Assembly: GCA_001778375.1 (NCBI GenBank)
Contig: MFGV01000041.1
Span: forward strand, 1 to 51,507
DNA: 51,507 nt
Direction: 5' to 3'
Origin: Candidatus Firestonebacteria bacterium RIFOXYD2_FULL_39_29
GTDB taxonomy: Bacteria > Oederibacteriota > D2-FULL-39-29
Part shown: piece by piece, positions 38,392 through 51,289 of the stretch
Layout of the letters: each line of letters starts with the position of its first letter
How positions within the stretch are numbered: position 1 is the stretch's first letter
Translations under genes and position numbers: made by a program
The notes under the pieces: generated by a model
Told to the model about the DNA's origin: nothing
What the model saw: only the letters and a program-made list of their open reading frames with translations
Databases searched by the model: none

Positions 38392-39429
38392 GTGGATTTA
38401 TTATATAGGGAGATAGCTGAGAAAATAAGAAAGAAAATTGCTGGCGGTAGATATTCTGTAAATTCTAAGCTGCCAAGCGAAGCGGATCTTTCAGGGGAAC
38501 TAAAAGTCAGCCGGCCTACTATTAAGAATGCTGTACGCGTCCTTGTTAATGAAGGTGTGCTTTCCTGTGTACCTTCAGTAGGCAGTTTTATTCTCAGAAA
38601 ACCGGGAGAAAGAATAATTATCGGTTATATTGCTCCGGATCTTTCAGACCCTTTTCATACCGACATGATCTCCTGTGTTGAGAAACTGACAAACGAAAAA
38701 GGATATGGTCTTACAGTTGCTGCGAGTGGTGAAACGGTCGAGGAGGAAAGTAGAGCTGTAGTAAGATTGGTAAAAAACGGAGCCGTAGGTGTTCTTGCTT
38801 CAAGATCTCTTAACATTGCCTTAGAAAAAAGCAGATTTAAAATTCCTCTAGTGTGGTGCGGCGGGATCCCTGCTGATTCGGAAAATGACAGGGTAACAAT
38901 TGACAATAAAAAAGGAATGTTGCTGCTTGTGGAACATCTGATTTCCCTGGGAGTAAAAAAAATAGGATATGTGGAAGCTGAAAAAAAATCGAAATTTATG
39001 AGCGAGAGAGGCCGTGAATTAAAAAATATACTTGCGGATAAGATAATCAAAGTGAGAGACGAATGGTTTGTCTGTTCTGACGTAAGCGGTGAAGAGGGCG
39101 AACATAATCTCTTTGAACGCTTTTTGAAAAACGGTCTGCCGGAGGCGATAATTTGTTATAACGATCTGACAGCTGCGGGTATAATAAATGCGGCTTTAGA
39201 AAATAAAATATCCGTCCCTGAAAGATTAAAGATAACAGGGTTCGACAATATCGGATTGAGTCGTTTTTTTAAAGTTCCCATTACCACCGTGAATTATAAG
39301 ATAGCCGTTATAGCGGAGCAGGCGCTGGAACTGCTTTTAAAAAGGATATCCGGCTCAAGAGAAAATACTGTAACGGCAATAATTGAACCGGAGCTGATTG
39401 TAAGGCAATCAACGAAGCTGCTGGAGTAA
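38392..39429 (+). CDS. GntR-HTH/LacI-sensor hybrid transcriptional regulator
   Basis: A 345-residue regulator. Residues 1-70 are a GntR-type winged helix (YREIAEKIRKKIAGGRYSVNSKLPSEADL, KVSRPTIKNAVRVLVNEGVLS, GSFIL). Residues ~75-345 are a LacI/periplasmic-binding sugar sensor (IIIGYIAPDLSDPFHTDMI, ITGFDNIGLSRFF, PITTVNYK), as in AraR. It should bind sugar and release DNA. The GTG start 38392 has GGAGG at 38383-38387. The GH89-like gene follows 44 bases on without a terminator, so it is the first likely target; the cluster from 41817 is another. A consensus promoter with direct repeats sits upstream. Confidence 0.9.
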   Translation: MDLLYREIAEKIRKKIAGGRYSVNSKLPSEADLSGELKVSRPTIKNAVRVLVNEGVLSCVPSVGSFILRKPGERIIIGYIAPDLSDPFHTDMISCVEKLTNEKGYGLTVAASGETVEEESRAVVRLVKNGAVGVLASRSLNIALEKSRFKIPLVWCGGIPADSENDRVTIDNKKGMLLLVEHLISLGVKKIGYVEAEKKSKFMSERGRELKNILADKIIKVRDEWFVCSDVSGEEGEHNLFERFLKNGLPEAIICYNDLTAAGIINAALENKISVPERLKITGFDNIGLSRFFKVPITTVNYKIAVIAEQALELLLKRISGSRENTVTAIIEPELIVRQSTKLLE

Positions 39430-39473
39430 ATTGAGATTTGTAGATTATTTAATAAATAATGACAGGAGGGAAT

Positions 39474-41672
39474 ATGCATAGAATAATCAGAAGTGTAATG
39501 ATTGTCGCAATTGGATTTTGTATTTTTTCTTACGGGGCGGAGGAAGGTGAAAAGATAGAGAAAACAGGGTGGGTGATCTATAAACCTGTAAAGGCTCATT
39601 TTTCTTATGAGCATGCGGCGAATGAATTAGCGCGTTACATTAAAGAAATGAGCGGCGTGGCTGTTGCTATAAAGACGGATAAGGAAGTAAAACCTGAAGA
39701 CAAGGTTAGATTAATTATTGGAGACAGCGCGGTAAATGATTTAACAAAGGATTTAATGTCAAAAGGAAAAATTCCCGTTCCGAAAACTTTGGGAGAGGGC
39801 GGATATTTTATTAAGAGTGTAATTGATGACGGCAGAACAAATATAGTGTTTGCCGGGACCAGGGGCAGGGGTGCGATGTATGCCGTCTATAACTATCTGA
39901 GAAAATATTGTGACTGCGGGTATTTCAGAGATGGGGATTATATTCCAAAAAGAATAAGTATTCCGGTTAAAAATATAGAATTTTCCGACATACCTGTTTT
40001 TCCCATAAGGGAGGGATTTGCGTTTACGTCTATTAAAGGACCGATGTCCAAGTACTCCAATTGCTGGGATTTTGAGTACTGGAAATTATGGGCGGATTTT
40101 TCAGTGAAGACAGGGGCGAATGTTCTGCATCATTATGTTATGTGGGGTGATATTCCCTATAAAGTATTTGACAAACTTGATATAAATGATGCTGTCAACC
40201 GGTCAGGGGATGTTTTGGCTCCCAAAGACAGGTCAGCCCTTAATAAGAAAATGCTTGATTATATGAGAACTCTTGATGTTGATATCTGGTACGGATTTGG
40301 CGGTACCTGGGGTTCTGTACCAAAATCTTTTAACTCAGCTTACCCCGGGCATAGTATGTTAAATGCTACTCTTTTACTGCCGGAAGATAAGGATTTTGAT
40401 GCAATAATGAAAAAAATATGGGCAGAGTATATAAAAGAATTTGGAAAAGCGGACAGATATTTTATCATATATAATCCTGAGGGCAAGGCGGAGATGAGGT
40501 ATGATGCTTATGATAAGGCCGTCAAAATATTCAGGGAGCTGGATCCGACTGCTAAGTTTATGTTTTGGAGCTGGGACCTGGACTGGGGGACGGGAAATAA
40601 AAACATAGAAGAGTTTAATAAAAGGCTTCCCAAGGATTGTTTAGTTCAGGATCAATCCGAAGCAAAACGGGGTTTAAAGTCCGAGGGTAATCATTTTGGC
40701 GGCAGGGATTGGATACATTGTGAAAGAGCCATAGGGGAGTTTTTTTCTGGAGACAGATTAGGCAAAGGTTTCGGGGATTTCAGGGGCGACCGAATAATAA
40801 ATGACGGGGTTACTGCTGAGAGTAAGATACCTGTCGGATGCAAAGGTGCTACTTTTTATAATGAGCTTGATTCCGGGAATTTTCTTGCTTTCTCCATAGC
40901 TATGGATACCGAGTGGAATCCGGGTAAAATAAAGAAGTCTTTTGACAAAGGGGAATGGCTGGAAAGGTATATTATTGAAAGATACGGAAAAGAATCTGCA
41001 ATTAATATGGGAGCAAGCTTAAAAGAAACTTTTAAAGCGAACCTTGGAGACGGTAAATATATTGAAGGAGAAGACAAGATAATAGATAATGCCGTAAAAC
41101 TGGCGCTAAAAGAGAAAGACAGACAAAAAGACAATCAGCGATATGTGTATTATATGTATGACATGGTGACGCAGGCTCTTTGGGACTCCGGGTGGGCAAA
41201 ATATCAGCTTATAAAGGATTCTTTCAGTAAAGACCCGAAATCTTCTGATACAAAGAAATATCTTGCTAAAGCCAAAGAATATATAGAAATGTTGAACGAT
41301 ATTATGGCAAGTCAGAATCGCGATAAATTGAGTATAACTTTTGATAGTATTACTTCCAGGTCTCCGATGGCAGATAAATCTGAAGTAGCCCTTACAATAG
41401 GATCAAGAACCTTTCAAATTATAGTATATGAAAATTGGTACCTTAATTTTTACAGACAATATGTTGCATCATTAAGGGTCCTTGAGAAATCAATAGCGCA
41501 GGGAAAACTGCCTGCTCAAAGCGAAATAGATGCCGCTTTAAAAGAAATCAAGCCGGACTGGAATTATTGGAATCCGGCAGCTATTCAAAAGATAGGCAGT
41601 TATAAACCCAAAAAAGATACATTAACTCTTATTGAAGAAGCATCAAATAAAGGGATCTTTTTAGTTAAATAG
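39474..41672 (+). CDS. Secreted GH89-like (alpha-N-acetylglucosaminidase-related) glycosidase
   Basis: A 732-residue protein with a signal peptide (about 1-22, IVAIGFCIFSYG). The N-terminal domain resembles those of GH20/GH67/GH89 enzymes (EHAANELARYIKEMSG, TRGRGAMYAVYNYLRKY). The barrel region matches GH89 in layout: FEYWKLWADFSVKTGANVLH, MRTLDVDIWYGFGGTWGSVP, LPEDKDFDAIMKKIW, FIIYNPEGKAEMR in the place of the GH89 FNE acid/base segment, and TAKFMFWSWDL. GH89 cleaves alpha-linked GlcNAc. The match is remote, and DUF4838-type proteins are an alternative. ATG 39474 has AGGAGG just upstream; ATG 39459 precedes that site. Confidence 0.62.
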   Translation: MHRIIRSVMIVAIGFCIFSYGAEEGEKIEKTGWVIYKPVKAHFSYEHAANELARYIKEMSGVAVAIKTDKEVKPEDKVRLIIGDSAVNDLTKDLMSKGKIPVPKTLGEGGYFIKSVIDDGRTNIVFAGTRGRGAMYAVYNYLRKYCDCGYFRDGDYIPKRISIPVKNIEFSDIPVFPIREGFAFTSIKGPMSKYSNCWDFEYWKLWADFSVKTGANVLHHYVMWGDIPYKVFDKLDINDAVNRSGDVLAPKDRSALNKKMLDYMRTLDVDIWYGFGGTWGSVPKSFNSAYPGHSMLNATLLLPEDKDFDAIMKKIWAEYIKEFGKADRYFIIYNPEGKAEMRYDAYDKAVKIFRELDPTAKFMFWSWDLDWGTGNKNIEEFNKRLPKDCLVQDQSEAKRGLKSEGNHFGGRDWIHCERAIGEFFSGDRLGKGFGDFRGDRIINDGVTAESKIPVGCKGATFYNELDSGNFLAFSIAMDTEWNPGKIKKSFDKGEWLERYIIERYGKESAINMGASLKETFKANLGDGKYIEGEDKIIDNAVKLALKEKDRQKDNQRYVYYMYDMVTQALWDSGWAKYQLIKDSFSKDPKSSDTKKYLAKAKEYIEMLNDIMASQNRDKLSITFDSITSRSPMADKSEVALTIGSRTFQIIVYENWYLNFYRQYVASLRVLEKSIAQGKLPAQSEIDAALKEIKPDWNYWNPAAIQKIGSYKPKKDTLTLIEEASNKGIFLVK

Positions 41673-41816: not shown

Positions 41817-43367
41817 ATGATACGTTCTATTAAATTATCTCTCAAAGACCTTTTAGGAAAAGAATATATGGAAGGTGTTGTTGAAAACGCCGTTCTATTT
41901 TTAGGGTTAAAGAAAAACGAAGCTCTTAAACTTGCGGCTGAGAAGGTGGAGTTTTATCCCGGGGATTACGAGAAGAGGGCGGATAATCTTATTAAAAGTA
42001 TCGGGACCCGGGTTTGTAAATCACTATATAAAACGGCTTCTGGAGCGGCAACTGATAGTTTTAATAAGGCAACGAATTTAAAAGCGGCTCCTCTTGGCGG
42101 TTTTGCGTTTTTTCGCATCGGCGAGGATGGGCGCCTTTATTTGATCTCTAAGAGCGAGCATTACCACGCATCGCTGGGTCACAACTTCCCCGGATATAGG
42201 TTGCTGCAGATCGCCGGAATGCTTGGTATTACCAATATCACCCATAACAATACTCGGGGTTTTATTACCCGCCGTCTTGAGGAAGAGCTGATCCGCACGG
42301 TCAATGGATTGAAAAAAAACGATATTAAAGATGTTGAAAAGATAAGGATATCCGGAGATAAACACATTCTTAGCAGGGTTTTAAATCTCGAAACCGGGTC
42401 ACTGGCCGTAGAAGCAGGGATTAAGATGATGCTTTCGAGATTTTACCGGTTGGATAAAAAATCGGACGTGCCCATAAATGCTGGAAAGACGCCGGTCTTT
42501 CTTGTAATGGGAGATAATGAGGGAGGGAAAAATTCAAATTATCACGGAACGACTATTTTCGCGCAGATGATGCGCGGTATGTGGCCAAAGATGCATGAAA
42601 AAGCGGTTAAGGCGGGTGTTTCGCTGACTATTCCTGTAAGCATAAATGATATTAAAGATTTCAAAAAGAAATTTAAAAAGTATAATACAGGCAAATACAT
42701 GATTGCCGGGTTTTTGCACGAGATAATAATGATGAATTATGGCGGGATAAAATTAAAACAGAATTATCTGAAAAAAGTTTATAAAATTTGCCATAAAAAT
42801 AATGTCCCGGTTCTTGTTGACGAGATTCAATCCTGCATCTGGTATCCCGGAATGTATCTTTTTAAACTTTACGGGCTGCATCCCGACTTCGTCGCAATCG
42901 GCAAGGGTTTTCCGGGAGGACAATATCCTGCATCAAAAATAATAATGACAAAAGAAATGGATACTCTTAACCAGTTTGGCGCGCTTGTTACGAACGGGCA
43001 GGAGGAGCTGGCCTCGCTTGCGTATTTGATAACTATGGCTTTTGCGGAAGCGAATGCGCCGCATATAAATGAAATCGGAAAGTACTATGAAAAATCTCTG
43101 AGAAAAATGGCGGAAAAATACAAGGGTATCGTAAATATGATTGAAGGCAGGGAACTTCTTTCGTCAATATGTTTTAAAACAGCCGAACAAGCTGCGAAGT
43201 TTGCCGAGTTGCTGGCTGCTGAAGGCATTGACATAAGCGCCCAGACATACAAAGCAAATTGTCCGCCCGCGGCTTTAACAAAACTTCCCATTATTTCTAC
43301 AAAAAAAATGGTGAAGTACCTTATCTGTAAAATGGAATCAGCGTTTATGCGCATGAAAACGGAGTAA
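41817..43367 (+). CDS. Class III aminotransferase
   Basis: A 516-residue PLP enzyme of the class III (acetylornithine/glutamate-1-semialdehyde type) fold: LVDEIQSCIWYPGMYLF with cofactor-binding D335, and VAIGKGFPGGQYPASK with Schiff-base K363. NGQEELASLAYLITMAF follows. A ~150-residue N-terminal part is longer than in ordinary members (ASLGHNFPGYRLLQIAGMLG, THNNTRGFITRRLEEEL). It likely transfers an amino group to or from a keto sugar or an omega-amine. GGAGG-type site precedes ATG 41817. The Gfo/Idh gene follows 3 bases after its stop, placing it in the sugar cluster. Confidence 0.85.
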   Translation: MIRSIKLSLKDLLGKEYMEGVVENAVLFLGLKKNEALKLAAEKVEFYPGDYEKRADNLIKSIGTRVCKSLYKTASGAATDSFNKATNLKAAPLGGFAFFRIGEDGRLYLISKSEHYHASLGHNFPGYRLLQIAGMLGITNITHNNTRGFITRRLEEELIRTVNGLKKNDIKDVEKIRISGDKHILSRVLNLETGSLAVEAGIKMMLSRFYRLDKKSDVPINAGKTPVFLVMGDNEGGKNSNYHGTTIFAQMMRGMWPKMHEKAVKAGVSLTIPVSINDIKDFKKKFKKYNTGKYMIAGFLHEIIMMNYGGIKLKQNYLKKVYKICHKNNVPVLVDEIQSCIWYPGMYLFKLYGLHPDFVAIGKGFPGGQYPASKIIMTKEMDTLNQFGALVTNGQEELASLAYLITMAFAEANAPHINEIGKYYEKSLRKMAEKYKGIVNMIEGRELLSSICFKTAEQAAKFAELLAAEGIDISAQTYKANCPPAALTKLPIISTKKMVKYLICKMESAFMRMKTE

Positions 43368-43370
43368 ATT

Positions 43371-44501
43371 ATGGAAAAAGTTAAGTTTGGAATAATAGGA
43401 TGCGGTCTTATGGGCCGGGAGTTTGCAAGTGCAGCTGCAAGGTGGTGCCATCTTGAAGGAGATATTCCGGCGCCCGAGATAATAGGCATCTCGGATACGA
43501 ATGCCGCGTCATTTGGTTGGTTTGATAAACATTTCCCCGGAATAAAAAAGAAAAGTTCTGATTGTAATGAGCTTCTAAATATGAAAGAAATAGAGGCAAT
43601 CTATTGCGCCGTACCGCACAACCTTCACGAGAAATTATATATAGATATAATAAACTCGGGAAAACATCTTCTTGGTGAAAAACCCTTTGGAATTGACAAG
43701 ACTGCAAATGAAAATATACTTGCCGCTGTTAAGAAGAACCCAAAGGTTTTTGTCAGGTGTTCTTCAGAGTTTCCGTTCTATCCTGCGGCTCAGAGACTCT
43801 GGGACTGGATAGAGAAGAAAGAGTTCGGGCGTATATTAGAAGTTAAAGCCGGTTTTTGTCATTCGAGCGATATGGACCTAAATAAACCTGTTAACTGGAA
43901 GAGACAGTCAAAATACAACGGGGAATATGGCTGTTTGGGAGACCTGGGAATACATGCAGAACATATACCCTTCCGGGCGGGTTGGGTTCCAAAAAATGTC
44001 CACGCGCGGCTTTCAAAGTTTGTTGAAAAACGTCCTGACGGCAGTGGTAAAATGGCAGAATGCGATGTCTGGGATAATGCTTCTCTTTCTTGCGAGGTAA
44101 AAACAGAGCAGGGACCGTTCCCTATGTTTATAGAAACTAAGAGAATGGATCCCGGTGCTACAAATATGTGGTATCTTCAGGTCAAAGGTATGAACGGGTC
44201 TGCATATTTTACCACGGATGATTCTAACGCCTTTCATTATCTGAAAACTGACGGAAAGGAACAGCCGTGGTCGAGGATAGTTGTCGGCTGTAAACCTCAG
44301 TTTCCGGTAATTACCGGAAATATATTTGAATTTGGATTTACCGACGCAATCCTGCAGATGTGGGCGGCTTTTATCTGTGAAGCTGCTGGGAAAAAAATAA
44401 AGTTCGGATGTTTCAGGCCGGAAGAGACAAAAATATCCCACTCGCTTCATACGGCGGCTTTAGAATCTCAAAAAACAAATATGACGGTGGAGGTAAAATG
44501 A
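43371..44501 (+). CDS. Gfo/Idh/MocA-family oxidoreductase 1
   Basis: A 376-residue NAD(P)-dependent dehydrogenase. The Rossmann start is KFGIIGCGLMGREFASAAA; YCAVPHNLHEKLYIDIINSGKHLLGEKPFG holds the conserved E-K-P, and the C-terminal sheet domain includes CLGDLGIHAEHIPF with a conserved D-x-x-x-H type pattern. Members oxidise or reduce sugars and inositols at one carbon. It overlaps the following isomerase-like gene by ATGA. It differs clearly from the second Gfo/Idh protein at 49433, so the cluster may oxidise and re-reduce different carbons. Confidence 0.9.
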   Translation: MEKVKFGIIGCGLMGREFASAAARWCHLEGDIPAPEIIGISDTNAASFGWFDKHFPGIKKKSSDCNELLNMKEIEAIYCAVPHNLHEKLYIDIINSGKHLLGEKPFGIDKTANENILAAVKKNPKVFVRCSSEFPFYPAAQRLWDWIEKKEFGRILEVKAGFCHSSDMDLNKPVNWKRQSKYNGEYGCLGDLGIHAEHIPFRAGWVPKNVHARLSKFVEKRPDGSGKMAECDVWDNASLSCEVKTEQGPFPMFIETKRMDPGATNMWYLQVKGMNGSAYFTTDDSNAFHYLKTDGKEQPWSRIVVGCKPQFPVITGNIFEFGFTDAILQMWAAFICEAAGKKIKFGCFRPEETKISHSLHTAALESQKTNMTVEVK

Positions 44502-45868
44502 GAGAACCAAAAATCGGATTTTTACCTCTTTATCTTGAACTTTACGATAAGTTTGATCCGAAAATAAGAGATGAATTTAAAAATATAGTAGAAGAGCTGA
44601 AGAAGATGCTTTCTTTGAACGCTTTTGTGGTTTCTTCAGGGATTGTAACCAAAAAAAAAGAAGCAGATTGCATGGAAAGAATTTTTAAAAAAGCAAAAGT
44701 TGAGGCTGTCTTTACTTTTCATCTTTCGTACTCTCCGAGTTATCTGGTCTCAAGCATTCTGGCAAGGTTTGGTAAACCGGTGTTCTTTCTAAATACCACG
44801 ATGACCGGGAGTTATAAAAGAATGAAGCCTGAATTTCTTATGCAAAATCATGGTATTCACGGGGTTATGGACCTGGCCTCTGTTTTACGTTCGTATGGAA
44901 AAAGTTATAATATTATCTCAGGGTATCATAAAGATAAAGAATTTAAAGAAAAAATAAAGAAAACTTTAAAGAATATAGCTGCGGCCGGATCTTTTAAAGG
45001 GCAAAAGATAGGTATTACTGGAAAACCGTTTGAGATGATGGGTGATTTTGCAGTACCTTTTGGGCTTTTAAAGAAAAAGTACGGAGCAAGTGTAGTTACT
45101 GTAAAAGAATCTGAAGTTGTCTCCGAAATGAAGAAAATAAAATCCACGGCAATAACAAAAGAGATAAAGAGTGACAGGATAAAATACCGCATGCTAAACG
45201 TTCCGGAAAATGTACATGAAGAAGGCGTGCGCAGCTATCTTGCGATGAAGAGTATTGTGTGCAGGAAAAAACTGGATGCTTTTACCATGAACTTTTTGGA
45301 TTATAAAATAATATCTGTACCTTTTTATGCAATTGACAGATTAATGGAAGACGGATTGGGTTATGCAGGTGAAGGTGATGTACTGACTGCAATGTTAAAA
45401 AAACTCATAGAACCATTTGCCCGCAATTTAATGTTTACAGAGTTTTTCTGTCCGGATTGGAAACGGGGGCTTATTTTGATGTCGCATATGGGAGAGAGTA
45501 ATCCTGTGTTTGCTGAAAAAAAGACACGTCACAGCATTATAGCGAAAAAAGCTTTTGGCAGTGATAAACTTACTATGTACCATAAATACAAAGCAGAGAA
45601 GGGAATGATCACCTTTGTGAATATTTCCAAACTGCCGGATGGCGGATTTAAACTGGTAACCGGGCTTCTCAATATTATTGATGAAAAATTATTTGATTGT
45701 CTGGATATGCCTCAGTTTTCGGTTAAACCCTTTATTCCGGTGGGGGATTTTCTGGAAAAATACTCTATGGCCGGGGGAGGTCACCATATTTATATAGCAA
45801 AAGGCAATATTACAGGGGATATATTGAATGCCGGAACAGTTTTAGGGATGCAGGCATTAAAAATATGA
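44498..45868 (+). CDS. L-arabinose/L-fucose isomerase-like protein
   Basis: A 456-residue protein of the FucI/AraA fold group. Visible family-like features are IGFLPLYLELYDKF at the N-terminus, GYAGEGDVLTAML (metal-binding E region), LMSHMGESNPVFA and AGGGHHIYIAKGNITGDILN with the H-H metal ligands. It should interconvert an aldose and ketose using Mn2+. The start is ATG 44498 in an ATGA overlap, with GGAGG just upstream; longer frames lie within the previous gene. Sequence alone does not decide the sugar. Confidence 0.8.
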   Translation: MREPKIGFLPLYLELYDKFDPKIRDEFKNIVEELKKMLSLNAFVVSSGIVTKKKEADCMERIFKKAKVEAVFTFHLSYSPSYLVSSILARFGKPVFFLNTTMTGSYKRMKPEFLMQNHGIHGVMDLASVLRSYGKSYNIISGYHKDKEFKEKIKKTLKNIAAAGSFKGQKIGITGKPFEMMGDFAVPFGLLKKKYGASVVTVKESEVVSEMKKIKSTAITKEIKSDRIKYRMLNVPENVHEEGVRSYLAMKSIVCRKKLDAFTMNFLDYKIISVPFYAIDRLMEDGLGYAGEGDVLTAMLKKLIEPFARNLMFTEFFCPDWKRGLILMSHMGESNPVFAEKKTRHSIIAKKAFGSDKLTMYHKYKAEKGMITFVNISKLPDGGFKLVTGLLNIIDEKLFDCLDMPQFSVKPFIPVGDFLEKYSMAGGGHHIYIAKGNITGDILNAGTVLGMQALKI

Positions 45869-48279
45869 GAAAAACAGATGTTTTTATAGGATTGGACCTG
45901 GGTACTTCCCAACTTAAAGGAGTAGCGGCAGATAAAGAAGGAAATATTCTTATTGCCAAAAAATGTATTTCACCGGTAATTAAAAAAGGCGGCGGTAAGT
46001 TTGAAATAGATTCAAAAAAATATTACTTTGAGATCTGCAAACTGATTAAGGCGCTTGCCGTAGAAGTGCAGGAAAACAAATACAAAATACGAGCTCTCAG
46101 CATGGCTTCTGCAAGCGGGAACACTCTTTTAATCGGAAAAAACGGAGAACCGCTTTGGAATGCAATAAGCTGGCAGGATAAAAGAATGATAGGCAGACTT
46201 AAGGGATGTTTCAAAGAGCTTGATACAAAATTGGTTCAGGAAATTTTAGGCTGGCCTTTTCTTGAAATGTTCCCGTTAGCGCATATTACCTGGTTTAAAG
46301 AGTTTAAAAAAACTATTTTTAAAAAAACCGCGCTTATAGGAATGACTTCAGAGTATGCGGCTTTTCGTTTAACCGGTAAATGGGGAATGGATCCGTCTTC
46401 CGCTACACCTTTTTACCTGGTGGATCAGAAAAAGGCTCAATACTACAAACCATATCTTGATCAGTTGAATATTAAACGAAAAATGCTTCCTGCAATTATG
46501 AAAGCAAACAGTATTTTAGGGTGTTTGACGAAAAATGCGTCTAAAGAAACAGGTTTAAAAAGAGAGGTAATTGTAATACCGGGTACTTTTGATCATCCGG
46601 CCTGCGCAAGGGGTGCCGGAGTACTTTGTCCCGGTCAGATCCTTTTATCCTGTGGAACTTCCTGGGTTGGATTTTTCCCTGTTAAAGATAGGAAGAAGAT
46701 ATTAAAGTTAAAAATGCTTGCGGATCCGTTCCTGCGTAAGAAGAATACCTGGGCAGGTATGTTTTCCATTCCTGAACTTGGAACTGTTATCGACGAAGCG
46801 GTAAAAGAAATTGCGGGGAAAGGGCGGTATAAGCTTTTTGATGTTCTGGCCGGAACCTATAATGGCAGATTAAAGAGGATTACCAAACCATCCTCCTGGT
46901 CTACAACATTTAAAAAAATGAGAAGAGAAGAAGCTGCTTTTCATGTTATGAGATGGTTATGTATATTGATGAAAAAAAAGATCAAAGAATTAAAGAAAAT
47001 AGGGATAAAGGCTAATAAAGTATATATGGCCGGCGGGCCGTCAAGGAGCGGTATCTGGCCAAAAATAATGGCGGAAACGCTCGGAGTTGAAATAAGATGC
47101 CTGAATAAAGAATATACAGGCGCGGCAGGAGCTGCTCTGACTGCTTCAATAGGTGCAGGAGTTTTTAAAGATGAATTTGAGGCGTGGGAGAAAAGAAGAG
47201 AGAACGTAACTGTCTTTAAACCGGAATCCGGCATACGAAAAAAACTTTTTAACATAAAAGAAATTGACAAGGATGTTTATTCTAAAGAGTTGGCTGAGTT
47301 TTTGCCTGAAAAAATTCTAGATATACACTCACATATTTGGCTTAAGAAGTTTAAAATTAAAACAGAATCAGAAGACAGAGGGGCAGAGTGGCCTAAGCTT
47401 GTGGCTGAGGAAAATTCTATGGAAGATCTTCAAGCTACCTACTCTCTTCTTTTTCCGGGAAAGAAGGTTATCCCTGTTGTCTTTGGTATGCCTGAAAAAT
47501 ACTTGTCGCTTGAAAAAACTAATAATTATGCGTCAATAGCTGCCAAAAAAGAAAATTTTCCAAGCCTTCTGGTCAGTACGCCGGAATGGAGAGGAAAAGA
47601 ACTGGAGAATAGAGTGAAAACCGGGGGATTTATCGGATTAAAACCCTATTTGAATTTTGCGCCGGGGTATATTAAAAGTAAAGATATAGAAATATTTGAT
47701 TTTCTTCCAAAGGAGCAGCTTGAAGTTGCATCCAGGTTTGGCCTTGTAATAATACTTCATATTCCCCGCCCGGGAAGGCTTAAGGATCCTGTCAATATAA
47801 AACAACTCTTGGAAATAGAAAAGAGATATCCGGAAATAAAACTTGTGGTGGCGCATTTGGGCAGGACGTATTGCGAAGAGGATCTTGGGGATGCGTGTAA
47901 ATTATTAGTAAAAACAAAAAATATGATGTTTGATTTTAGTGCTAATACTAATTCGGAAATAATGGAGAAATTTTTGAGGACCTTTGGCCCGGGTCGGTTG
48001 GTTTTCGGCTCGGATTTTCCCATAACCAGAATGAGGATGAAAAGAATCAATGAGAACGGAAAATATGTCAATCTTGTTCCGCCCGGACTCTATGGGGATG
48101 TGTCAAGAGATCCGTCAATGCGGGAGGCTTCGGCAAAAACGATAGAGAAGATGACTTTATTTATATATGAAGAGCTACTGGCCTTTAAAAAAGCCGCACA
48201 GAAAATGAAAATCACTTCAAAAGAAGTTGAGGATGTTTTCTATAACAATGCGGTGAAGTTATTAGGGAGAAGTCTATGA
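45865..48279 (+). CDS. FGGY carbohydrate kinase fused to amidohydrolase (TIM-barrel) domain
   Basis: An 804-residue fusion. Residues ~5-450 are an FGGY sugar kinase: phosphate loop FIGLDLGTSQLKGVAAD, NAISWQDKR, catalytic D243 in PGTFDHPACARG, LLSCGTSWVG, and adenosine-site MAGGPSRSGIWPKIMAE. Residues ~480-804 are an amidohydrolase-2 domain with a full metal set: H488 and H490 (DIHSHIW), H632 (ILHIPRPG), H664 (VVAHLGRTY), D717 (FGSDFP). Related amidohydrolases open sugar lactones or decarboxylate. No stop, frameshift or ribosome site lies at the junction. It overlaps both neighbours by 4 bases. The fusion should couple sugar phosphorylation with a hydrolytic step in one pathway. Confidence 0.88.
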   Translation: MRKTDVFIGLDLGTSQLKGVAADKEGNILIAKKCISPVIKKGGGKFEIDSKKYYFEICKLIKALAVEVQENKYKIRALSMASASGNTLLIGKNGEPLWNAISWQDKRMIGRLKGCFKELDTKLVQEILGWPFLEMFPLAHITWFKEFKKTIFKKTALIGMTSEYAAFRLTGKWGMDPSSATPFYLVDQKKAQYYKPYLDQLNIKRKMLPAIMKANSILGCLTKNASKETGLKREVIVIPGTFDHPACARGAGVLCPGQILLSCGTSWVGFFPVKDRKKILKLKMLADPFLRKKNTWAGMFSIPELGTVIDEAVKEIAGKGRYKLFDVLAGTYNGRLKRITKPSSWSTTFKKMRREEAAFHVMRWLCILMKKKIKELKKIGIKANKVYMAGGPSRSGIWPKIMAETLGVEIRCLNKEYTGAAGAALTASIGAGVFKDEFEAWEKRRENVTVFKPESGIRKKLFNIKEIDKDVYSKELAEFLPEKILDIHSHIWLKKFKIKTESEDRGAEWPKLVAEENSMEDLQATYSLLFPGKKVIPVVFGMPEKYLSLEKTNNYASIAAKKENFPSLLVSTPEWRGKELENRVKTGGFIGLKPYLNFAPGYIKSKDIEIFDFLPKEQLEVASRFGLVIILHIPRPGRLKDPVNIKQLLEIEKRYPEIKLVVAHLGRTYCEEDLGDACKLLVKTKNMMFDFSANTNSEIMEKFLRTFGPGRLVFGSDFPITRMRMKRINENGKYVNLVPPGLYGDVSRDPSMREASAKTIEKMTLFIYEELLAFKKAAQKMKITSKEVEDVFYNNAVKLLGRSL

Positions 48280-49364
48280 ACCTGAAATATAAAAGCGACT
48301 GGGAAGAAACCAAGAAGAGATATAAAGCCTGGTGGGCTCATGACAATAACGGCCGCTGCGGTATGTGGGTAACGGCACGGTTAAAAGGCGTAAAGCCGGC
48401 CATGCTTCCTGAAGTTTCCTCGGATCCGGAGGTTAAATGGCGCAACCTTGAATATCATGCAATTAAAATTGATAATAATCAAAAAAGTACCTTCTATGGC
48501 GGAGAAGCTTTTCCTTCCTGGGACATAGGTCATCCCGGACATGATTCCATGCCTGTTTTTCTCGGGTGCAAGGTAAAACTTGAGGAAACAACCGGCTGGG
48601 TGAATCCTTTATGTACCGTAGAAAAATATGAAACTGATAAACTTGTGTTTAATGAGAATAATCCACATTTTAGGTTTGCTCTGAAATGGCAGAAGTTTGC
48701 CGTAGAAAAGGCCCGGGGCTGTTCTGTTCCTCCGGTTGTGACGGCGCTCGGTGCCTGCGGTGATGCGCTTGCCGGGATAAGGGGCAGTGAACAGCTCCTT
48801 TATGATATTCTGGATATTCCGGAAGAGGTAAAAAAAGCGGATCTTCGCTTAATAGAATTATTTATCAAATATTATTCTTGTTTTTATGAATTGGCAAAAG
48901 AGGCTGCAGAGGGTTCCTCTGCCTGGTTTCCTTTATGGGCTCCCGGAAAATTCTATCCTTTGCAAAATGATTTTGCCTATATGATATCCCCGGAGTCTTT
49001 CAGAAAAGTATTTATGCCGTCGTTGGAGAAACAAATGGAGTTTCTGGATTATTCCGTTTATCATGTTGACGGGGAAGGATGTTTTAATCATCTTGATGCG
49101 ATACTTGAGATAAAAAAACTTCAAGCAGTGCAGATCCTGCCGGGGGACGGTAAACCAACTCCTTTACATTATCTTCCGCTTTTGAAAAAAGTCCAGGCGG
49201 CAAAAAAGAACCTGCATATAACTCTGGAACAAAATGAAGTTGAAGAAGCTCTTAAACTTCTTTCAGCAAAGGGATTGTTTATTCATGTCAATAATATTTT
49301 AGGATCCAAAGAAGATGTTGAAACACTGTTGAAAAATACGGAAAAATGGTCGCATGACAGATGA
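48276..49364 (+). CDS. Uroporphyrinogen decarboxylase (URO-D)-like barrel protein
   Basis: A 362-residue protein with URO-D/methyltransferase-like barrel features: the C-terminal half reads YMISPESFRKVFMPSLEKQMEFLDYSVYHVDGEG, then HYLPLLKKVQ, and LFIHVNNILGSKEDVETLL. Family members decarboxylate uroporphyrinogen or transfer methyl groups with corrinoids, but this is unlikely to be HemE, since the HemE N-terminal signature is absent and it lies inside a sugar operon. URO-D-like genes of unknown function are seen in carbohydrate loci of uncultivated bacteria. The start overlaps the fusion kinase gene by ATGA. The reaction is unknown. Confidence 0.7.
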   Translation: MNLKYKSDWEETKKRYKAWWAHDNNGRCGMWVTARLKGVKPAMLPEVSSDPEVKWRNLEYHAIKIDNNQKSTFYGGEAFPSWDIGHPGHDSMPVFLGCKVKLEETTGWVNPLCTVEKYETDKLVFNENNPHFRFALKWQKFAVEKARGCSVPPVVTALGACGDALAGIRGSEQLLYDILDIPEEVKKADLRLIELFIKYYSCFYELAKEAAEGSSAWFPLWAPGKFYPLQNDFAYMISPESFRKVFMPSLEKQMEFLDYSVYHVDGEGCFNHLDAILEIKKLQAVQILPGDGKPTPLHYLPLLKKVQAAKKNLHITLEQNEVEEALKLLSAKGLFIHVNNILGSKEDVETLLKNTEKWSHDR

Positions 49365-49432
49365 AATACAAGTATAATATTAAAGGTATAAAGCGAAAAC
49401 AGCAACATCGGTATGAAATTACAGGAGGCTTT

Positions 49433-50674
49433 ATGAAAGATAAAATAAAAGTAGGGGTAATTGGTGTAGGCAGGGGGCGATCTTTTATGAATGGTACCAA
49501 ATATGCAGGAATGGAGCTGGTCGCGATCTGTGACAAATGGAAAGAAAAGCTGAAAGAAGTTAATAAAAAATATAATGTTGCGGTATATACTGACTATGAC
49601 AAGTTCCTTAATCATAAAATGGATGCGGTGATTGTGGCAAATTACTTTCACGAACATGCACCTTTTGCTATCAAAGCGCTTAGAGCGGGAAAACATGTGA
49701 TGAGTGAATGCACTCCCGCAAAGACCATGGCGGAATGTGTTGAGCTTGCCAGAGAAGTGGAAAAAAGTAAAAAAATATACGTACTGGCGGAGAATTATCC
49801 TTTTACGGCCTTTAACCAGGAGATGGCGAGATTGTACAAAACCGGGGAGATAGGAAAGATTATTTATGCTGAAGGTGAGTATAATCATCCGATGTCAGCG
49901 GAACAACTTCTCGGAATATCTCCGGGGTGGAACCACTGGAGAAGCTGGATGCCGGCTACTTACTACTGTACTCACGCGCTTGCACCGCTTATGGCAATTA
50001 CGGGGGAAATGCCGGTTTCCGTGAACGGGCAGGCGATGGCAAACTGGGAATACGCAAGAAAAATGATAAGGTTTCAGGATCCGGGGTCAGTGATGCTTGT
50101 CAGAACTAAAGGCGGATCAGTTTTTCGAATATTCGGTACATTCACTCCCGGACATTCAATCTGGTACCGTCTTCATGGAACCAGGGGAAGTATGGAAAAT
50201 GTAAGAAGCGAGGGATACTGGGGTAACGGTCAGGTCAGAATAGTGCATGAACCTTTTGACCTCAAGTCCGGAGAAAGCAGAGAAAAATCCTACAAACCTG
50301 AGTTTCCCGGCTGGGCAAAAGAGTTGGCGGAAAAAGCTGATCATGGCGGCGGGGATTTTTTCACAAATCATATTTTTGCACAAGCTATAAGAACCGGCAA
50401 GCAGCCATTTATGAATGTTTACAGGAGCGTTGCGCAGTCTGCGGTTGCTATTCAGGGCTGGAGAAGTTGTCTTGATAACGGTAATTATTATCCTATACCT
50501 GATTTCAGCAAAGAGTCTGAGAGAAAAAAGTACGAAAATGACAACTGGTCCCCGTTCAAAGAGGATAAGAAGAACGGCCTTCCGCCTTCCAGTATAGAAG
50601 GCGATATGGAATGGACTCCGGCAATGAGAAAAAAAGCAAAGGAGATCTGGAAAAAGACAGGATATAGACCGTAG
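49433..50674 (+). CDS. Gfo/Idh/MocA-family oxidoreductase 2
   Basis: A 413-residue dehydrogenase: Rossmann start KVGVIGVGRGRSFMNGTKYA, VIVANYFHEHAPFAIKALRAGKHVMSECTPAKTM, where the usual E-K-P is E-C-T-P-A-K, then ENYPFTAFNQEM. The changed E-K-P loop is seen in a subgroup of the family and may alter cofactor or substrate binding. A long C-terminal tail ends in EWTPAMRKKAKEIWKKTG. ATG 49433 has AGGAGG at 49423-49428; the 72-base in-frame extension upstream overlaps the URO-D gene and is rejected. It is the last clearly metabolic gene of the cluster. Confidence 0.88.
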   Translation: MKDKIKVGVIGVGRGRSFMNGTKYAGMELVAICDKWKEKLKEVNKKYNVAVYTDYDKFLNHKMDAVIVANYFHEHAPFAIKALRAGKHVMSECTPAKTMAECVELAREVEKSKKIYVLAENYPFTAFNQEMARLYKTGEIGKIIYAEGEYNHPMSAEQLLGISPGWNHWRSWMPATYYCTHALAPLMAITGEMPVSVNGQAMANWEYARKMIRFQDPGSVMLVRTKGGSVFRIFGTFTPGHSIWYRLHGTRGSMENVRSEGYWGNGQVRIVHEPFDLKSGESREKSYKPEFPGWAKELAEKADHGGGDFFTNHIFAQAIRTGKQPFMNVYRSVAQSAVAIQGWRSCLDNGNYYPIPDFSKESERKKYENDNWSPFKEDKKNGLPPSSIEGDMEWTPAMRKKAKEIWKKTGYRP

Positions 50675-50675
50675 A

Positions 50676-50714
50676 GAAACGTTATGAACGTTCCACGTTA
50701 TCAAGTTGCTAACG
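50676..50714. repeat. Family C dispersed repeat, copy 3
   Basis: AACGTTATGAACGTTCCACG and CACGTTATCA plus TGCTAACG follow the stop of the oxidoreductase gene. CACGTTATCA also occurs in the reverse complement of 34286-34320. Confidence 0.55.
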
Positions 50715-50737
50715 AAAAGAAAAGAGGAGGTATAACA

Positions 50738-51289
50738 ATGAGTGAATTGCCTACTGTATATATGTTAAGGGATAATCTTGAGGGTGTTTTGGCCTGCGAA
50801 TTACCGGCCCCTTACTCCGTAAAGTGGTATCAAAAAGGAGATGAAAGAACCTGGGTGAATATTGTTTCTGCCGCAGAACTTAATTATGTTGGAAATTTGC
50901 AAAAGTATAAGGAGCAGTTTGGCGAAGATGCAAATATTATCAGCCAAAGACAATTATTTATTTTAAACGGTATCGGAAAACCTGTCGGGACCTGTACCTC
51001 CTGGTTTGGTACCGAAGGGAAAGATAAAGGTTCAGGCCGGATACACTGGGTGTCAATACTGCCGGAGGAACAGGGAAAAGGGCTGTCAAAACCGATGCTC
51101 TCAATTTCTTTAATGAGAATGAAAGAACTTGGTCATAAAAACGCATATCTTACCACGCAGCCTCCGAAACTGCCTGCCATATCTCTATATTTAAAATTTG
51201 GCTTTAAACCCCAATTAAGGAATGTAGGTGATGCAATTATCTGGGAAAAAATATTTGCCGAACTGAAAAAAGTTCGAAAAGGTTCATAA
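50738..51289 (+). CDS. GNAT-family N-acetyltransferase
   Basis: A 183-residue GNAT enzyme. The acetyl-CoA loop is WVSILPEEQGKGLSKPMLS (Q-x-x-G-x-G/S type), followed by AYLTTQPPKLPAISLYLKFGFKP, the typical C-terminal helix and strand. FILNGIGKPVGTCTSW forms the preceding strands. The substrate is not known; in the context of an aminotransferase it might acetylate an amino sugar. ATG 50738 has GAGGAGG at 50724-50730. The upstream in-frame extension is repeat sequence. It may be co-transcribed with the cluster or separate; no promoter is obvious. Confidence 0.82.
   Translation: MSELPTVYMLRDNLEGVLACELPAPYSVKWYQKGDERTWVNIVSAAELNYVGNLQKYKEQFGEDANIISQRQLFILNGIGKPVGTCTSWFGTEGKDKGSGRIHWVSILPEEQGKGLSKPMLSISLMRMKELGHKNAYLTTQPPKLPAISLYLKFGFKPQLRNVGDAIIWEKIFAELKKVRKGS

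Follow-up and report, generated by a model that had tools for sequence, protein, structure and literature searches.

A kinase-amidohydrolase fusion protein encoded in a putative sugar-catabolic operon of Candidatus Firestonebacteria

Results and Discussion

Kinase and amidohydrolase share one open reading frame

The contig of Candidatus Firestonebacteria bacterium RIFOXYD2_FULL_39_29 analysed here (51,507 nucleotides; the window) encodes a protein of 804 amino acids in which an FGGY carbohydrate kinase (aa ~1-455) is followed by a complete Amidohydro_2 domain (aa ~456-804). This fusion is a real new domain architecture built from known families, and it is probably a truly bifunctional enzyme belonging to an uncharacterised pathway of sugar catabolism, formed by the union of two genes that elsewhere often lie side by side. 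The first-pass annotation had placed both halves in a single uninterrupted frame with intact active sites, within an operon of 4-base overlaps, and each of these statements was borne out. The ORF (45865-48279, + strand) is open over 804 codons without a stop; the preceding gene for an AraA-like isomerase ends at 45868, downstream of the fusion start at 45865, and the fusion ends at 48279, downstream of the start of the next gene at 48276. The residues named for the kinase (D243) and for the amidohydrolase (H488, H490, H632, H664 and D717) are all present and nearly invariant among relatives. The surrounding genes are listed in Table 1.

The join lies at about aa 456-458. Up to FKPESGIRKK the fusion resembles the tail of a stand-alone kinase (locus L006), and from LFNIKEIDKDVYSKEL onward it resembles the N-terminus of stand-alone amidohydrolases, the kinase tail passing straight into the amidohydrolase N-terminus (47190-47300). 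In this junction neither ATG nor GTG is present in frame at the position where the stand-alone relatives start; only TTG is found, further in. Because the start codon of the amidohydrolase is lost and no stop lies between the halves, two separately translated genes are unlikely.

Table 1. Features of the fusion gene and its surroundings (positions in the window).
Feature	Position	Strand	Evidence
GntR-type DNA-binding and LacI-type sugar-binding domains; probable sugar-responsive regulator	38392..39429	+	Pfam GntR and Peripla_BP_3
NAGLU / GH67N-like protein; may be a glycosidase belonging to this operon	39459..41672	+	Pfam NAGLU, E 1.3e-9
Class-III aminotransferase AMT1, 516 aa; recurrent neighbour	41817..43367	+	Pfam Aminotran_3, E 3.8e-22; 50% identical to homologue in G059 cluster
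Gfo/Idh/MocA oxidoreductase 1; recurrent neighbour	43371..44501	+	Pfam; homologues in 10/51 neighbourhoods
AraA-like (L-arabinose isomerase family) sugar isomerase; 4-base overlap with fusion; third cassette member	44498..45868	+	Pfam AraA_N/central/C; homologue in 30/51 neighbourhoods
FGGY carbohydrate kinase domain of fusion, aa 1-455	45865..47229	+	Pfam FGGY_N, E 1.3e-37; motifs aligned with 25 relatives
Amidohydro_2 domain of fusion, aa 456-804; H488, H490, K593, H632, H664, R667, D717	47230..48279	+	Pfam, E 1.4e-16; residues in 50-51/51 relatives
362-aa protein; conserved partner; 4-base overlap with fusion	48276..49364	+	Homologues in 6/51 neighbourhoods; 47% identical to one beside the amidohydrolase in L045
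Gfo/Idh/MocA oxidoreductase 2; true start may be 49433	49361..50674	+	Pfam; 51-53% identical to cluster homologues
GNAT acetyltransferase	50684..51289	+	Pfam Acetyltransf_1; homologous domain fused to same amidohydrolase in G306, G776, G795, G804

The kinase half is a divergent FGGY protein

The match to Pfam FGGY_N (aa 7-246) is far above the cutoff (130.1 bits versus 28.8), whereas that to FGGY_C stays under it (24.6 bits versus 27) and is partial (aa 366-430, profile positions 132-197 of 198). The profile of the related kinases aligns over its full length with FGGY structures. The catalytic D243 is kept in 26 of 26 related kinases, and the phosphate (G13-T14 and G264-T-S-W) and adenosine (G390-G391) motifs are present, with G13, G264-T265 and G390-G391 conserved. 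The N-terminal domain, the catalytic Asp and both kinds of motif are thus shared with FGGY kinases of the XylB, LsrK and FucK type (PF00370/PF02782), from which the fusion differs by its divergent C-terminal half and by the attached amidohydrolase. The best family models were those for xylulokinase and autoinducer-2 kinase, but the kinase half lies far under every equivalog cutoff (180 bits versus 380 for XylB). At aa 363-364 (46951-46956), R-W replaces the E-G found in most clostridial kinase relatives; some of the other relatives have K or Q at position 363. Translation of the other frames gave no compensated frameshift in the C-terminal part of the kinase, and the loop at about 317-357 was modelled with low confidence. 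With FGGY_C under the cutoff and E363/G364 replaced, kinase activity is not assured; from the sequence, we infer a sugar kinase.

The amidohydrolase half represents a family of its own

The Amidohydro_2 profile (PF04909) matched aa 556-722, again well above the cutoff (61.6 bits versus 26.4). H488, H490, H664 and D717 are present in all 51 related amidohydrolases and H632 in 50 of them; K593 and R667 are invariant alongside this HxH/His/His/Asp set. In the AlphaFold2 model of the domain, which is of modest quality (pTM 0.75, pLDDT 67), strands and helices alternate as in a TIM barrel. The HxH motif, two further His, the late Asp and the TIM-barrel pattern are common to known Amidohydro_2 members (gamma-resorcylate, dihydroxybenzoate and salicylate decarboxylases, and uncharacterised proteins such as 3cjp, 2f6k and 3nur), yet identity in the fold matches is only about 10-17% and the profile matches are weak (salicylate decarboxylase, E 1e-5 across 35 profile positions). 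Foldseek matches to Amidohydro_2 decarboxylases and hydrolases reached E 1e-7, but with a TM of about 0.5. Unlike the known members, the amidohydrolase of the fusion constitutes its own family of about 340 aa, tied to sugar genes. R635 and R638 are found in every amidohydrolase whose locus also encodes an isomerase or kinase (32 of 32), compared with 8/19 and 13/19, respectively, in the others; next to the predicted metal ligand H632, these arginines would suit a phosphate or carboxylate.

A full-length model of the fusion, which had been proposed as a check, was obtained, but its pTM of 0.52 means that the mutual orientation of the two domains is not reliable. The modest quality of the models reflects that the input to structure prediction was restricted to the window and two loci.

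Isomerase, kinase and amidohydrolase form a recurrent cassette

As stated in the first-pass annotation, the kinase and the amidohydrolase are normally separate proteins. Their genes are often neighbours, and the proposal that both serve the same undescribed sugar pathway is supported by a conserved cassette of AraA-like isomerase, kinase and amidohydrolase. The order is isomerase, kinase, amidohydrolase in a Clostridia MAG from goat caecum (L005), and amidohydrolase, kinase, isomerase, with short overlaps, in a Chlorobiota MAG (L006); the amidohydrolases of Clostridia and Chlorobiota are 45-51% identical to that of the window, the kinases 33-39% and the isomerases 30-33%. Among the 72 amidohydrolase genes in the examined neighbourhoods besides the window (one duplicate locus removed), 18 directly adjoin a kinase gene in the same orientation, the kinase coming first in 15 of these pairs, at distances of -113 to +24 bases. 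When genes were clustered over 51 neighbourhoods, the isomerase was found in 30, the FGGY kinase in 26, Gfo/Idh type 2 in 15, UPF0047 in 11, and Gfo/Idh type 1, DeoR and a GutQ-like SIS protein in 10 each; URO-D, TIM-like, aminotransferase, DeoC-type and FSA-type aldolase, and GNAT genes came next. The FSA-type aldolase, SIS, TIM-like and UPF0047 genes agree with a sugar context. In clostridial loci L100, L101, L106, L107, L110, L113 and L132, a TIM-like isomerase gene is accompanied by UPF0047 (YjbQ), in some cases by two such genes; FSA-type aldolase and GutQ-like SIS genes are recurrent there as well. A tandem pair of amidohydrolase genes of this family follows the kinase gene in L102 (8462-10553).

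The closest unfused counterparts of the window operon are clostridial loci L134, L115, L135 and L108, in which kinase, amidohydrolase and isomerase genes follow in this order together with an aminotransferase gene of the AMT1 family, all separate, with -1 to +22 bases between kinase and amidohydrolase. AMT1-type loci also contain MFS transporter genes and a GH20 gene (L115). In L183, the Gfo, isomerase, kinase and amidohydrolase genes come after two genes for ABC-transporter permeases, an arrangement that supports a role in sugar import and catabolism; ABC permease genes are also located ahead of the amidohydrolase gene in L098. Many loci carry the amidohydrolase with neither kinase nor isomerase; in L123, L126, L127, L128 and L130 (one family within the phylum of G306) it adjoins a conserved PHP-domain protein instead.

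The isomerase of the window has the three AraA domains according to Pfam, and it shares conserved Glu and His residues, kept across 30 relatives, with AraA and the sulfoquinovose isomerase SftI, but it scores far under both cutoffs (AraA, 106 bits versus 622; SftI, 22 versus 700). Pathways for sulfoquinovose, D-apiose and tetrulose were considered and rejected: the score for the sulfoquinovose model is too low, and in the open-licence literature no paper was found that links the cassette to one of these sugars. The 362-aa protein encoded downstream of the fusion had no Pfam or NCBIfam match, and its UroD-type resemblance is putative only.

The same amidohydrolase is fused to other partners

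In 13 rows of the tree the amidohydrolase is fused to a class-III aminotransferase; 12 of them fall in a single clade and one stands apart, and most come from a planctomycete-like phylum. L181 has such a fusion as well. These proteins are about 780-825 aa long (L043, L044, L049, L141, L143, L145, L148, L150-L154, L160, L181), and the corresponding label changes at least two times on the tree. From their sequences, the aminotransferase partner would be HemL-like and the host phylum planctomycete-like. Fusions to a GNAT domain, found in another phylum, lie on three separate branches (L045:7260-8852, L118:8276-9844, L124:5208-6812 and L125:5721-7334); L045 is labelled "none" on the tree despite its GNAT domain, the match being under the labelling cutoff. 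Both enzyme types are also encoded by separate genes in the window operon, where the aminotransferase belongs to another subfamily. That they are separate there and fused elsewhere is the strongest indication of one common route. Since the amidohydrolase is also encoded in loci that lack the kinase and has these other fusion partners, its substrate need not be the kinase product.

The pairing, but not the fusion, is found in the other genomes searched

The amidohydrolase profile was searched in roughly 1,850 genomes (samples overlapping somewhat). The fusion was found to be neither widespread nor already characterised: it is the sole kinase fusion in the loci examined from these genomes, and no description of the kinase-amidohydrolase union or of the cassette was found in the open-licence literature, although the architecture may already be listed in a domain database without comment. 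An 822-aa FGGY frame in G010 was rejected as a second fusion, being an open GC-rich upstream frame. The fusion is single-copy in its own genome, and no close amidohydrolase was found in the 44 other searched genomes of its phylum. Plasmid matches were found, best in kinases, none covering 80% of the query. The amidohydrolase family is present in 32 of 391 genomes (about 8%) of the class of L005, in 16 of 35 genomes of the G306 phylum and in 22 of 294 of the G181 phylum, with few elsewhere. Thus, the kinase-amidohydrolase fusion looks private to the window genome, whereas the pairing of the two enzymes is not.

A precedent is provided by FGGY kinases fused to DUF4867 (cupin, SftX family), of which 10 proteins have been reported (PMC11968277). 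As in the window, an FGGY kinase there carries a pathway partner at its C-terminus; the fold of the partner and the gene cluster differ.

Proposed pathway and alternatives

The recurrent cassette, together with aminotransferase and GNAT fusions that have counterparts in the window operon, suggests that the fusion joins two steps of one uncharacterised sugar-catabolic pathway. The AraA-like isomerase would convert an imported aldose (or sugar derivative) to a ketose, which the FGGY domain, judging from its family, would phosphorylate with ATP, D243 acting as the base. The amidohydrolase domain, probably a mono-metal enzyme with H488, H490, H632 and D717 as ligands and H664 as acid/base (metal-dependent catalysis being typical of the family), would act in a further step, on another intermediate or the same one in this route; the order of steps, substrate and reaction are guesses. 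Consecutive steps and channelling, as suggested in the first-pass annotation, are hypothetical. Against a bifunctional enzyme count the occurrence of the kinase fusion in one genome, the many loci in which the amidohydrolase lacks both kinase and isomerase, the two oxidoreductases and the aminotransferase of the operon, whose place is not explained, as well as the weak structural matches and modest models (domain pLDDT 67, full-length pTM 0.52).

The label "lactonase-like" given to the amidohydrolase in the first-pass annotation was not supported: the L-fucono-1,5-lactonase model matched 30 residues with 16.9 bits versus 400 (E 0.0036), and the nearest structures, themselves weak matches, are Amidohydro_2 decarboxylases and uncharacterised hydrolases. 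Because these are also the nearest, if weak, profile matches, we favour, with low confidence, chemistry of the C-C bond or decarboxylation type rather than hydrolysis of a lactone. The amidohydrolase is not simply the only aldolase of the pathway, since some clusters carry a dedicated FSA- or DeoC-type aldolase in addition to it. A broader proposal, less likely than not, is that gut Clostridia, planctomycete-like bacteria and others share a sugar pathway that is widespread and undescribed. The amidohydrolase would be its central new enzyme, performing C-C bond chemistry on a sugar or sugar phosphate, and would have been fused in separate lineages to the kinase, an aminotransferase and the acetyltransferase of this pathway.

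It is rather doubtful that the domain is nevertheless a sugar lactonase. In this reading one of the Gfo/Idh enzymes encoded in the operon would oxidise the sugar to a lactone for the domain to open, in a branch parallel to the kinase step. Amidohydro_2 does include sugar lactonases, Gfo/Idh oxidoreductases are encoded twice in the operon and are found in many clusters, and the very weak match to the L-fucono-1,5-lactonase model points the same way; yet decarboxylases and uncharacterised hydrolases are nearest by profile and fold, and L006, L099 and L114 have kinase, isomerase and amidohydrolase without a Gfo gene in view. A sugar derivative that contains nitrogen (amide, lactam or imine) is an unlikely substrate, too; the amino group would then be dealt with by the aminotransferase and acetyltransferase, and the kinase would pass the freed sugar on to central metabolism. 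The separate fusions of the amidohydrolase to both enzyme types, the AMT1, GNAT and NAGLU-like genes of the window and the GH20 gene of L115 would agree with it, but aminotransferase and GNAT are missing from most sampled clostridial cassettes. That the join is non-functional or artefactual, through an assembly error or as a fused pseudo-enzyme with a decaying kinase half, would fit a kinase fusion seen only once and the divergent C-terminal half of the kinase, but is highly improbable given the long in-frame join, the lost internal start codon, the active sites conserved in both halves and the clean 4-base overlaps on either side.

Implications

The fusion indicates that kinase and amidohydrolase cooperate. 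Through it a cassette came to light that has no described function and that is present in several other phyla and in about 8% of the genomes sampled from one class of Clostridia. The amidohydrolase, a recurrent hub of fusions, is a more useful lead than the kinase fusion, which by itself is of moderate interest. Joined to three kinds of partner in separate lineages, the amidohydrolase assigns four enzyme types to what would be one route, so that a search for the substrate becomes practicable, and the separate, side-by-side kinase and amidohydrolase genes of many bacteria, including gut Clostridia, offer a concrete handle on the pathway.
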